Shown here in pieces: positions 15,094 to 22,891 of a stretch of DNA of 24,703 nucleotides. Location of the stretch: positions 1-24,703 of the forward strand of contig CAMDRL010000002.1 in NCBI GenBank assembly GCA_945906835.1. Direction: 5' to 3'. How positions within the stretch are numbered: the first letter of the stretch is position 1; each line of letters opens with the position of its first letter. Source of the DNA: Rickettsia typhi. Its GTDB lineage: Bacteria; Pseudomonadota; Alphaproteobacteria; Rickettsiales; UBA1997. A program made the position numbers and the translations under genes. The notes under the pieces are model-generated. The model had not been told where the DNA came from, made no database searches, and was given only the letters and a program-made list of their open reading frames with translations.

Positions 15094-15260
15094 TTAGACA
15101 CTGTTAGCTAATTATTTTTTATCCCATATTTAGCCCTGTTTTTGCTTATTTTTTGACAAAATTATTCAAAATATATCCAAATATTTATCATAATTTTGTC
15201 AAAAAAGCGCTAAAAACATTTCAAAATCTGTGCTAAAAATAATTAGCTAACAGTGTCTAA
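15094..15260. mobile_element. MITE-like palindromic element, 167 bp
   Basis: Perfect 26-base terminal inverted repeats (15094-15119 and 15235-15260), each starting TTAGACACTGTTAGCTAATT. An inner inverted pair TTTTTTGACAAAATTAT brings the total to a long imperfect palindrome. No reading frame is present. It sits between two convergent genes, and the stop codon of the histidine kinase (15257-15259) lies within the right terminal repeat. Short A-runs flank both ends, but no clear target duplication can be called. It could also act as a bidirectional terminator. Confidence 0.7.
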
Positions 15261-18200
15261 AAAATCCACCTATCAATCACAGCTTGTACATATTCCTTCT
15301 TAATCGGCTTAGATAAAAAGTCATTCATGCCAGCATTATAACATTTTTCTTTAGCCTCATCGGTAGCATTCGCTGTTAAAGCAATAATCAAAACTGGTTT
15401 AGCGTCATTTTCTTTTTCAAGTTCTCTAATTTTTTGTGTTGTTTGAAAACCATCCATTAAAGGCATCATGCAATCCATGAAAATAATATCATATTTAACA
15501 TGCAGGAATTTATTTAAAGCTTCTTGACCATTTTCAGCCACATCAATTTCAAAATTAAGACGCTTTAGAATCATTGAAGCAACTTTAATATTCACCTCAT
15601 TATCTTCGCATAATAATATTTTCATGCCCTTGTTTTTTGAAAATTCTTCTGCGACCTGACCTTTCTTTACCAAAGTTCCTTCATCTTCGTAAAATGTAAT
15701 TTTGAAGACAAAAAATAATGCTTTTAATAAGCGACTTTCTTTTGTTGGCTTAGAAATTATACGATCAAATAATGCTAGATTTTCTTTAGAAATTAAAATT
15801 CTATCACTACTGAAAACCATAAGAATTATTGGAATATTCTTAGTGTTTTCATTATCTTTAAGTTTCTTAGCTATATCAACTGCGTTAACACCAATAAATA
15901 AGTTTTGGCTTATAACAATTGCTTTATAATTTTTATATTGCTGCAAAGTTTTTAAGGCGTAATTAGATCTTTCATCGGCATCGGATATTGATTCAGGAAT
16001 TCTAATAATATTGTGATCAATTTTAAAGCTGGTCAGTTTCTTATCTAAAATTTCACCGGCAACCTCGTTATTTTCTATAACTAGAACTTTTTTGCCAACT
16101 AACTGATTTTTTTGTTCAATATCAAGATCAATAAATGAACTTTTTGATTCTACGAAAGGTATTTTGAACCAGAAGTTAGAGCCTTGTCCAAAATCACTGG
16201 TCACTCCAATTTTACCACCCATTAAATCTACCAACTCTTTGCAAATTGAAAGTCCAAGACCAGTGCCACCATATTTTCTTGTAGTGGACATATCGGCTTG
16301 ACTAAATTTTGTAAACATGGCTTCAAGCTTGCTCGTTTCAATTCCAATTCCACTATCTTTGATATCAAATCTAATGAAAGAAAGATTTTTCTCTTTTTTA
16401 TCTAAAGTGATATTGATAAAAATTTGTCCATAAGCAGTAAATTTAATAGAGTTGTTAATCAAATTGGTGAAGATTTGTCTTATTCTTCCAGAATCGCCAA
16501 TTAGAACTTGTGGCACATTGGCATCAATATCAGTGATAATTTCTAAGCCTTTTTTATTGGCGCTTGGTGACATTAAATCTGCAACATCTTCAATTAGCAT
16601 TCTTGGGTCAAAATTGATTCTTTCTAACTCAACTTTTTTAGATTCAATTTTTGAAAAGTTCAAAATGTCATTTAAAATTATTAACAAGGCATCTGCAGAA
16701 CGATAAATTGTACTGGCTTGATCTTGTTCGTTGTCTGCTAAAGTGCCAGAATCTTTTAAAGCTTGGCTCATACCAATAATGCCGTTCATCGGAGTTCTTA
16801 ATTCGTGACTCATATTAGATAAAAACTGACTCTTGGTAACATTGGCAGATTCTGCGGCAATTTTGGCATTTGATGTTTCTTTCATGAAAGGTCCAATTTT
16901 CTTTCTCTTGAAAAGGTATAAAGCAAATATGAAGAAAAATGCTGCGCCCATAGATTGCATGGCAGAATTGAAAAGTTGTAAGCTAATTTTATCCAAAACA
17001 ACTTTATTATCATATCCCACAAAAGCCTGAACTCGATATTCTGATTGGCGATAATAATCTATAACGCAATTATTAATGGTAATTGTTTTTGATAGTCTAT
17101 CTTCTGTTCTGCCGCCTTGATTCTCAATTATATTGCGCAGATCTAATTGGTCTTGAAAGAGTGTTTTTGAATAGCTATGGCCAAAATTTTCTGACTTGGC
17201 AATTAAGTCATAATTCTTATCAATTAAGACATAACATATATCATTATCGCTGTAAGAGCTATTTATGGATTTTTCAATTCTTAGATTGGCAATTGTGGCA
17301 GCTAAAGTACCAATTGGTCTAAGATCGTCATCATCAATTCCTATTGCAATAGGCATCACATCATAGCTGGCAAGGTCATTACTTATATGATAAATTTTGC
17401 CAACTTTAGTACGCCACATTTTTTTTAAAGCCGCTTCTATTGGGTAATAATTTTCAACTAATTTTGGATTTTTTGCTACTCCACCGTTGCTGGTAATGGA
17501 AATCTTTTTATTTAAATTGATAAAACTTACATCAAGCCAAGAAGATACATTTCTTTGATAAGCGTCTCTATTTTGACTTCTTTTAATCATCTTCTTAATA
17601 GCTCCATTTGTGCTATCTCCAGATGCAGCTAAAACTAAAATCTTATCACCAACATAGTTTAGATAGTTATCCACAGCACTTATTAATCCCGATGCTGATC
17701 TTTCTATTACGCTGCTATGAAATATTATTTTATTATTTAAGTTATTTTGGAAGTTACGGTAAATCATGGCAGAGTTTACAAAAGTCCATATCAATATCAG
17801 AGAAAGAAGAGAGTAAGAGAAAGCGCTATAAGATTCTTCTAGATTTAACTTCCTCTCATTTCTTTTTTTGCGTTTGGCAATAATTTTTCTGTGACGATTT
17901 TTTATCTTTTTAAATTTCTCTTTATATGAAGGATTCAGTTCAATACGCTTTTTAATTTTTTCTGGAACAGGTTCATATTCTCTTCTTTCAAAAATAGAAG
18001 TCAGAACATAATGATAAAAGGGTATCAATATGGCGACTCTAAAAATTGAAGATACAAGAGTGAATTCGCGCCAAATAATTCCAAGATTTAGTGGTAAAAA
18101 CAAAATAAATTTTGTGACATAAAAAATGCTCAAACAAAGATTTTTAATATTTGTTTTAAGAGACATGTAAGTATTTTTAGAAAAGACTATCTTTCTGAAC

Positions 18201-18286
18201 TTTTTTAGCCTTCTTAATATCTTTTTAAGCATTGATTTATTGTATCTTTTTGAAGCAAAGCGCCTTTTTACTGGTAATTGCAGCAT
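15257..18286 (-). CDS. Hybrid sensor histidine kinase with periplasmic sensor region, pseudo-receiver and C-terminal receiver
   Basis: Inner-membrane sensor that autophosphorylates on His and passes phosphate to its receiver. In order: basic N-terminus; hydrophobic stretches ~48-70 and 78-98; TM ~155-175; a ~265-residue, probably periplasmic sensor region (Cache-like, inferred) to TM ~442-460. Then come the HisKA phosphoacceptor His494 in SNMSHELRTPMNG, the ATPase N box NNSIKF, G1 DSGIGI and G2 GGTGLGLS (to ~710). A first receiver-like domain (~732-850) lacks the phosphorylatable Asp. A second receiver (~887-1009) has Asp938 in MDCMMPLMDG. There is no Hpt domain of its own, but a separate Hpt protein is encoded in the divergent cluster. 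Start is ATG at 18286, with an internal Met19 possible. Its stop lies in a MITE-like repeat. Signal unknown. Confidence 0.93.
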   Translation of the reverse strand: MLQLPVKRRFASKRYNKSMLKKILRRLKKFRKIVFSKNTYMSLKTNIKNLCLSIFYVTKFILFLPLNLGIIWREFTLVSSIFRVAILIPFYHYVLTSIFERREYEPVPEKIKKRIELNPSYKEKFKKIKNRHRKIIAKRKKRNERKLNLEESYSAFSYSLLSLILIWTFVNSAMIYRNFQNNLNNKIIFHSSVIERSASGLISAVDNYLNYVGDKILVLAASGDSTNGAIKKMIKRSQNRDAYQRNVSSWLDVSFINLNKKISITSNGGVAKNPKLVENYYPIEAALKKMWRTKVGKIYHISNDLASYDVMPIAIGIDDDDLRPIGTLAATIANLRIEKSINSSYSDNDICYVLIDKNYDLIAKSENFGHSYSKTLFQDQLDLRNIIENQGGRTEDRLSKTITINNCVIDYYRQSEYRVQAFVGYDNKVVLDKISLQLFNSAMQSMGAAFFFIFALYLFKRKKIGPFMKETSNAKIAAESANVTKSQFLSNMSHELRTPMNGIIGMSQALKDSGTLADNEQDQASTIYRSADALLIILNDILNFSKIESKKVELERINFDPRMLIEDVADLMSPSANKKGLEIITDIDANVPQVLIGDSGRIRQIFTNLINNSIKFTAYGQIFINITLDKKEKNLSFIRFDIKDSGIGIETSKLEAMFTKFSQADMSTTRKYGGTGLGLSICKELVDLMGGKIGVTSDFGQGSNFWFKIPFVESKSSFIDLDIEQKNQLVGKKVLVIENNEVAGEILDKKLTSFKIDHNIIRIPESISDADERSNYALKTLQQYKNYKAIVISQNLFIGVNAVDIAKKLKDNENTKNIPIILMVFSSDRILISKENLALFDRIISKPTKESRLLKALFFVFKITFYEDEGTLVKKGQVAEEFSKNKGMKILLCEDNEVNIKVASMILKRLNFEIDVAENGQEALNKFLHVKYDIIFMDCMMPLMDGFQTTQKIRELEKENDAKPVLIIALTANATDEAKEKCYNAGMNDFLSKPIKKEYVQAVIDRWIF

Positions 18287-22113: not shown

Positions 22114-22147
22114 TTTATTTTTCGTGATTCTTTTTAATAAGTAATTT

Positions 22148-22891
22148 ATGACATATATATGTTCACTAGCTAGTAATCCACAGGCTTTAAAGGACTTGGA
22201 ATTGCTATATGACAAGATATGGTGTTCCAGGATGCCACCAAGCAAAAGTGCCTATCTCATTCCCAGAATTATATCAAGTTTTAGTGAATACGTTTTGTTA
22301 GCTTATGGTAGTGAAGTTAAAGATGAGTTGATGGCTTATGCCGTAGCTATTCCTTTCAAAGGTCCGGAAGATATAAATGATCTTCCAGATTCTGGATATG
22401 ATGGTGTTCTTCATGATGCTTTTGTAGGTTTAGATAAAAAAATTAAACCTAGCATGTTATGCGCTATCTCAATAACTGTTGATCCAAAATTTCGTGGACT
22501 AAATTTGAGTGTAATTATGGCAAAATCTCTGACAAAGTTGACAAAAGATAATGGATTTAAAAATCTTGTGGTGCCAATAAGACCTCCCGGAAAAGCAAAT
22601 GAGATTGAGATGGATATGATGGAGTATGCTAAAAAATTACAGCTAGACGGTGATCCATTTGATTATTGGATTCGTTTACATTATAAATTAGGAGCAAGAA
22701 TTATTAAGATATGTTATAATTCAATGGTGATGAGTTATGATATTGGAACATGGGAAAAAATAACTGGCTTAAAATTTACTGAAACAAAAAACTATATCAT
22801 ACCAGATGCTTTATCTCCTCTTGAAGTACAATATGAAAAAAATATTGCCACAATGCATGAACCAAATGTTTGGATGCGTTATGAGTTGTAA
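22148..22891 (+). CDS. GNAT-family acyltransferase, second of the cluster
   Basis: 247-residue protein with the acetyl-CoA/acyl-CoA binding core of GNAT N-acyltransferases. There is a strand ELMAYAVAIPF near 60-70, then the strand-turn-helix SMLCAISITVDPKFRGLNLSVIMAKSL (~102-128) with the V-D-P-x-x-R-G-x-x-L pattern of motif A. GFKNLVVPIRP follows, then a late WIRLHYKLGARIIKICYNSM resembling the motif B region. It does not look closely related to the first GNAT of the cluster. It follows the Hpt gene by 34 bases on the same strand and is probably co-transcribed. Substrate unknown; tailoring of the signal molecule or of a lipid are options. Confidence 0.7.
   Translation: MTYICSLASNPQALKDLELLYDKIWCSRMPPSKSAYLIPRIISSFSEYVLLAYGSEVKDELMAYAVAIPFKGPEDINDLPDSGYDGVLHDAFVGLDKKIKPSMLCAISITVDPKFRGLNLSVIMAKSLTKLTKDNGFKNLVVPIRPPGKANEIEMDMMEYAKKLQLDGDPFDYWIRLHYKLGARIIKICYNSMVMSYDIGTWEKITGLKFTETKNYIIPDALSPLEVQYEKNIATMHEPNVWMRYEL

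Follow-up and report, generated by a model that had tools for sequence, protein, structure and literature searches.

A conserved Rickettsiales locus joining a LuxI/FeeM-like enzyme to a TonB-dependent receptor suggests an undescribed way to make and sense a small molecule

We analysed a 24,703-nucleotide stretch of DNA (the window: positions 1 to 24,703, forward strand, of contig CAMDRL010000002.1, GenBank assembly GCA_945906835.1, labelled Rickettsia typhi and placed by GTDB in Rickettsiales family UBA1997) that carries a five-gene conserved locus: a divergent hybrid histidine kinase, a GNAT-fold enzyme (GNAT1), a TonB-dependent outer-membrane receptor, a YfiR-like protein and a free-standing Hpt phosphotransfer protein. 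By profile, GNAT1 falls with the LuxI/FeeM class of acyl synthases, and its genetic link with the receptor, the YfiR-like protein and the kinase is long-lasting. The locus suggests that cells may produce a small molecule and detect it themselves in a manner not yet described. We put at roughly one in two the probability that the product of GNAT1 is an acylated small molecule and that its detection runs through the receptor, the YfiR-like protein, the kinase and Hpt. A first-pass annotation, made from the window's letters, had proposed a six-gene signalling system that also included a second GNAT (GNAT2); what it said of the class and conserved neighbourhood of GNAT1 held, whereas the membership of GNAT2 did not.

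Relationship of GNAT1 to acyl-homoserine lactone synthases

Two profiles were searched against the PDB, one built from family members alone (A4) and one to which members from the order had been added (A5). With A4 the five best matches were all acyl-homoserine lactone (AHL) synthases (E 7e-5 to 0.063): 4-coumaroyl-homoserine lactone synthase and BjaI (7e-5 and 8.7e-5), a further AHL synthase and LasI preceded any other protein, and the first other GNAT followed at 0.31. With A5, BjaI (1.4e-6) and 4-coumaroyl-homoserine lactone synthase (2.6e-5) led, the first ordinary GNAT standing at 0.015. GNAT1 thus did not cluster with ordinary acetyltransferases, in keeping with the synthase-like role that the first-pass annotation had given it. 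An Arg, an Asp and an Arg shared in the AHL-synthase alignments correspond to R88, D121 and R141 of GNAT1, kept in 24, 24 and 22 of the 24 aligned rows, and E179 is kept in 23. The Glu and Arg of a later motif are those that we take to correspond by LuxI numbering; the Glu occurs in 23 of the 24 rows, the Arg in none of the 14 family rows and in nine of the ten rows from the rest of the order, and the placement of the motif relative to LuxI lies outside the AHL-synthase alignments shown. The L163 and L169 proteins retain this Arg.

The FeeM model PF21926 was matched by 14 of the 24 GNAT1-type members at E 0.01, and three of its matches (L163, L164 and L169) exceeded the cutoff of 27; the window's own GNAT1 was listed neither at E 1 nor at 0.01, and its gathering threshold was not reached. 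The only Pfam cutoff that GNAT1 exceeded was that of Acetyltransf_1 (26.1 vs 20.7 bits), and on model scores it is a formal member of neither PF21926 nor PF00765 (Autoind_synth). The predicted structure was confident in the core alone (residues 1-67 had a predicted local distance difference test score, pLDDT, below 50), and this core resembled both FeeM and LasI, LasI being the top match in Foldseek and FeeM in VIA-align. We take GNAT1 to represent a putative new LuxI/FeeM-type subfamily that may use an acceptor other than S-adenosylmethionine.

Linkage of GNAT1 to the receptor

Three sets of genomes were surveyed: 61 from the family of the window, 343 from its order and a sample of 385 from the class. 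The GNAT1 family diverges fast, with a mean pairwise identity of 0.33 vs 0.61 for the receptor; direct protein search returned only four close homologues. Profile search found 19 GNAT1 in the 61 family genomes, and a search of the order with A4 matched 61 of the 343 genomes, with 63 matches (23 in the family and 40 in the rest of the order). Within the family, 18 of the 23 matches lay directly upstream of the receptor, 18-156 bp away on the same strand. Of the other five, one (G001) is divided between contigs, one (L123) adjoins the kinase where its contig ends, one (G051) stands on its own and two (G015 and G016) are weak, doubtful matches in 142-residue open reading frames; these two are still counted among the 23 and among the 55 co-occurrence genomes below. 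In the rest of the order the GNAT could precede or follow the receptor or occupy the opposite strand, and 23 of the 40 matches were within 3 kb of a receptor, against 0.20 expected at random positions in their genomes. A receptor was carried by 55 of the 61 GNAT genomes and by 71 of all 343 (Fisher 5.7e-42, related genomes not being independent); at most three candidate receptors were scored per genome, so some may have been missed.

Counting from the receptor side gave a similar view. A census of open reading frames, which covered loci from L105 on and left out L001 and L025, placed a GNAT within 3 kb of 45 of 81 receptors: 17 of 23 in the family and 28 of 58 in the rest of the order, where A5 had added five of the loci and where 19 of the 28 were within 200 bp. 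The open reading frame scans leave out loci L124-L152 and L201-L206, and several receptors and GNATs stand at contig ends. A GNAT1-type GNAT was present somewhere in 38 of the 48 receptor genomes outside the family. On a tree of receptors of at least 450 residues, the GNAT-linked state was scattered, with at least ten changes forced by well-supported branches, and also clustered, with 15 changes vs 26.3 in shuffles. One unlinked receptor clade of six genomes (G002, G003, G296, G297, G300 and G301) kept a GNAT elsewhere in the genome, and in G002 and G003 this GNAT had a GlmS-like gene as its divergent neighbour. The link between enzyme and receptor is well supported by these counts, and the arrangement exceeds chance, five of the six genes recurring together in related genomes.

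Most GNAT1 matches came from this order, and beyond it the pairing faded. In remote genomes, a receptor with both a YfiR-like protein and a kinase nearby was found at 28 of 78 loci (the best 78 of at least 465 receptor relatives), and GNAT1 was beside one of the 78, L025, which belongs to the same family. In the class sample, A5 matched six of the 385 genomes at 1e-8, three of them also in the order set; at the other three loci, about 3.4 kb each, none of the nine other window proteins tested was present. A plasmid collection gave no GNAT1 match, and viral contigs gave six TonB pieces at 22-40% identity. The synthase-like GNAT is an addition to the receptor-YfiR-kinase set, seen here in one order. 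Distance correlations corrected for LytB lend weak support, with 9-10 taxa, to contacts between product and receptor and between YfiR-like protein and kinase: GNAT1 correlated at 0.73 with the receptor (10 taxa), 0.49 with YfiR, 0.46 with the kinase and 0.29 with Hpt, and YfiR with the kinase at 0.81 (9 taxa).

Receptor, YfiR-like protein, kinase and Hpt

The receptor matched the NCBIfam model NF053590 (TOL_0244) over nearly its full length with 595.7 bits, short of the cutoff of 645, and is a close relative outside the equivalog. Its neighbour passed PF13689, with the narrower NCBIfam YfiR equivalogs below cutoff, and was weakly near TOL_0243 (NF053591), again under the curated cutoff; these two models are the nearest in NCBIfam to the adjacent receptor and YfiR-like pair. 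As read from the sequence, both proteins have a hydrophobic signal-like start, whereas GNAT1 translated from position 18425 does not; the longer GNAT1 frame, from 18386, opens with a short hydrophobic stretch. The hybrid kinase has an N-terminal membrane part and a presumed periplasmic part, and its H-box and receiver Asp, like the His motif of Hpt, are intact by direct reading. Of 17 GNAT-linked family loci, 16 had a kinase homologue no more than 6 kb from the receptor; the gene lists compiled for related loci show the kinase divergent to GNAT1. Hpt stood beside the receptor in 12 of these 17 loci vs none of the 28 GNAT-linked loci in the rest of the order, which makes a free-standing Hpt a trait of the family; the Hpt of the window matched the NCBIfam LuxU model weakly (E 0.012, 16 bits vs 140).

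A proposed circuit and its alternatives

In the mechanism that we infer, GNAT1 would acylate a small amino-acid-like acceptor, with acyl-CoA as the probable acyl donor, and the exported product would be recognised by the TonB-dependent receptor of the neighbouring gene. When the product is bound or imported, the periplasmic YfiR-like protein would change state and thereby control the divergent hybrid kinase through its periplasmic part; a phosphate group would then pass from the kinase His to the receiver Asp, on to the Hpt His and finally to a response regulator whose gene lies elsewhere. The outcome would be self-sensing, through the outer membrane, of a molecule that the cell has made. We tentatively go further, at somewhat less than even odds, and suggest a quorum-sensing or self-sensing design: a LuxI-like synthase could make a signal that a TonB receptor detects on the cell surface, in place of an inner-membrane sensor or of LuxR in the cytoplasm, and that the YfiR-like protein passes to a kinase and Hpt. 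The enzyme slot would be exchangeable (GNAT1, a GNAT with an iron oxygenase, or a PhzF-like enzyme), giving each lineage a private signal.

Several points count against this proposal. GNAT1 scored 19.1 to 19.3 bits against PF00765, below the cutoff of 24; its single sequence had no significant match in the PDB; and structure alone did not separate LuxI and FeeM from ordinary GNATs, which ranked closely behind them. We also infer the quorum-signal step itself, and the genetic pattern would look much alike if the compound were a metallophore or an external ligand that is modified.

The first of these two is the stronger alternative, though we regard it as unlikely: GNAT1 would make an acylated chelator that the receptor retrieves, with the YfiR-like protein and the kinase tuning production or uptake, so that the molecule would be a tool and not a message. 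TonB receptors are the classic importers of metal complexes. At 2 kb from the kinase the window encodes an ABC ATPase whose C-terminal domain is of the oligopeptide-transporter type, and a PF14518 iron-dependent oxygenase-like gene between the GNAT and the receptor at three loci (L161 3054-3758, L168 6536-7180 and L171 8088-8735) could build a chelating group. However, the oxygenase-like gene was limited to those three of the 100 loci scanned, and not one of the 19 family GNAT loci has the ATPase; the scanned window open reading frames of at least 90 residues included no recognised gene for chelator assembly; and the receptor scored far below the siderophore-receptor model (123.9 vs 223.5 bits).

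Rather less probable again is that an outside compound is imported or sensed and then acylated by GNAT1 in the cytoplasm, as detoxification or a first catabolic step, with the phosphorelay inducing the locus. The TonB-YfiR-kinase set is widespread without a synthase, as the remote loci show (28 of 78 with both partners, one with the GNAT), and the ligand therefore need not be self-made; moreover, a PhzF-like enzyme takes the place of GNAT1 in G056 and G057. Against this stand the profile kinship of GNAT1 with makers of acylated signals, not with detoxifying acetyltransferases, and the lack of an importer among the conserved genes of the family loci, most of whose flanking genes are unannotated.

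A role in the envelope is improbable. Here GNAT1 would belong to the OlsB-like branch (Acetyltransf_5) and make an acyl-amino-acid lipid or acylate a partner protein, and 12 of the 24 GNAT1-type members did match PF13444 at E 0.01, a family that we take to include OlsB-type enzymes; yet the solved structures closest to GNAT1 by profile are AHL synthases, although OlsB-like structures may be few, and a tie to an outer-membrane receptor would not be expected. Finally, the idea that GNAT1 merely occupies a conserved neighbourhood, with no tie to the receptor, is largely refuted and very improbable. In its favour, LytB is also near the set in nine of 19 family GNAT loci and G051 keeps GNAT1 alone. 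Among the 58 receptors outside the family, however, none has LytB beside it and 28 have the GNAT, in varied positions, and 23 of the 40 GNAT matches there are near a receptor vs 0.20 expected. Inherited synteny is no explanation, given these LytB counts, the varying position of the GNAT and the scattered linkage.

GNAT2 and a desaturase-like remnant

GNAT2 probably does not belong to the system. At E 0.001 it was found in none of the 61 family genomes, a search that had no positive control, and it had no match among the open reading frames of the loci scanned. Considered as a part of the system it was rejected on these grounds, on its absence from L001 and on its profile. It exceeded no Pfam family cutoff and is a GNAT by profile and fold; its profile was nearest to the polyketide-loading GNAT domain of CurA (E 5.8e-5), not to LuxI, and its model (mean pLDDT 69.7) matched generic acetyltransferases. 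The first-pass annotation had proposed to compare both GNATs with LuxI and FeeM and to survey their conservation with the receptor, YfiR-like protein and kinase. In the first comparison the profiles favour the LuxI class for GNAT1, whose structure alone was not decisive, and point away from it for GNAT2; in the second, GNAT1 kept its neighbours (the receptor directly follows 18 of 23 family matches and is within 3 kb of 23 of 40 elsewhere in the order) and GNAT2 did not.

L001 carries the receptor closest to that of the window among the matches listed (76% identity), followed by genes for a YfiR-like protein, Hpt, a 228-residue desaturase-like protein and LytB, with GNAT2 absent. Its genome has GNAT1 and the divergent kinase at the end of another contig, which agrees with the same gene order. 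The desaturase-like gene, named from a reading of its His motifs with no database match behind the name, is intact in L001 (3174-3860). Between GNAT2 and LytB in the window, the last 55 residues of this protein (174-228) survive at 54% identity (tblastn E 1.8e-18). Because this tail persists behind GNAT2 where L001 has the intact gene, GNAT2 is probably a newcomer at this place that interrupted the desaturase-like gene; the direction of the event is likewise only probable.

Layout of the locus and its neighbourhood

All six open reading frames of the first-pass annotation are present where it had put them (Table 1), and the gaps of 11, 0, 12 and 34 bases that it gave are correct. For GNAT1, which it had read as 18386-19237 (+), the frame stands and the start was revised: ATG 18425 is more likely because the homologues P0001, P0002 and P0004 begin there (three of the four homologues, P0003 being longer).

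Table 1. Coordinates of the features of the locus in the window
Feature	Position	Strand	Basis
Hybrid sensor histidine kinase, 1009 aa	15257..18286	-	Pfam HisKA, HATPase_c and Response_reg above cutoff
Divergent intergenic region, 138 bp, between start codons of kinase and GNAT1	18287..18424	.	Direct reading
GNAT1, putative LuxI/FeeM-type acyl-synthase-like enzyme, 270 aa	18425..19237	+	Profiles A4/A5, model core, conserved neighbourhood
TonB-dependent outer-membrane receptor, TOL_0244-like	19249..21249	+	Plug and barrel above Pfam cutoff
YfiR-like protein, hydrophobic signal-like N-terminus	21250..21738	+	PF13689, 48.9 bits (cutoff 24.9)
Free-standing Hpt phosphotransfer protein	21751..22113	+	PF01627, 29.3 bits (cutoff 24.6)
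GNAT2, unrelated acyltransferase-like protein; probably a later neighbour, not a conserved part	22148..22891	+	0/61 family genomes; profile
Desaturase-like gene, C-terminal remnant	22924..23094	+	tblastn against intact L001 gene

A promoter scan found no consensus match in the region between kinase and GNAT1, and over the whole region it gave 20 matches vs 23.0 in shuffles. Terminator-like sites were more frequent than in shuffles (6 vs 2.2); all six lie inside genes, and neither kind of site was used as evidence. The ABC ATPase near the kinase is a dual ATPase encoded at 11647-13236 (+), identified by Pfam.

Several related loci depart from this layout (coordinates are those of each locus). 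In the family genomes G056 and G057 (L153 5486-7276 and L154 390-1247) a PhzF-like protein is encoded upstream of the receptor and GNAT1 is missing, L153 having another GNAT. What these loci share with those that have GNAT1, or a GNAT and an oxygenase-like gene, is a small-molecule enzyme adjoining the receptor. A LuxI/FeeM-like GNAT stands next to a GlmS-like gene in L164, L185, L187, L192, L193 and L195, and a flagellin-domain protein is encoded close by in L159 and L164. The GNAT1 homologue of G051 (L109 2550-4201) is without a receptor and lies beside a zeta-toxin-family (PF06414) protein. Two tandem receptor/YfiR-like pairs occur in G045 (L113 2765-8643), one of them with GNAT1, forming a natural duplicate pair, and in L170 (5563-15499) two receptor/YfiR-like sets share a 10-kb stretch, one of them having a GNAT that follows the receptor.

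Comparison with known systems

LuxI-type AHL synthases, of which BjaI and 4-coumaroyl-homoserine lactone synthase are nearest, are like GNAT1 in the GNAT fold, the profile and the Arg, Asp and Arg positions; unlike them, GNAT1 is below the PF00765 cutoff, lacks the later Arg throughout the family and has 67 additional low-confidence N-terminal residues. No LuxR gene was found by a Pfam scan of the window open reading frames of at least 90 residues. For FeeM, whose model does not list the window's GNAT1, we know of no tie to a receptor. In the LuxM-LuxN-LuxU system of Vibrio, the AHL synthase LuxM, which lies outside the LuxI family, is encoded beside the hybrid kinase LuxN, an inner-membrane sensor, and the Hpt protein LuxU carries the signal onward. 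The present locus is alike in its synthase-like enzyme, hybrid kinase and Hpt, whereas here an outer-membrane receptor and a YfiR-like protein intervene. The YfiB-YfiR-YfiN system of Pseudomonas, in which periplasmic YfiR relays the state of the outer membrane to an inner-membrane diguanylate cyclase, shares the relay by a YfiR-family protein, but here a TonB receptor takes the outer-membrane role and a histidine kinase provides the output. FecA-type cell-surface signalling likewise uses an outer-membrane TonB receptor that signals, as proposed here, but the window receptor has no N-terminal signalling domain recognised by Pfam, and neither a sigma nor an anti-sigma gene was found among the window open reading frames of that size range.

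Among titles and opening lines of abstracts in the open-access literature, no paper described the receptor/YfiR-like/kinase set or this locus. TonB receptors in Lysobacter are affected by a LuxR solo, in a paper whose text does not contain the term YfiR (PMC4886534). Another paper describes the deep-branching Rickettsiales Mitibacteraceae and Athabascaceae, which we do not equate with the order studied here, as possibly free-living and biofilm-forming (PMC9352585).

Receptor/YfiR-like/kinase sets occur in many bacterial groups, and a lineage in which the set is tied to an enzyme offers a direct handle on its ligand. If the proposed circuit is true, it would add perception at the outer membrane to acyl signalling and, more speculatively, relatives of the host-bound Rickettsiales may communicate chemically.

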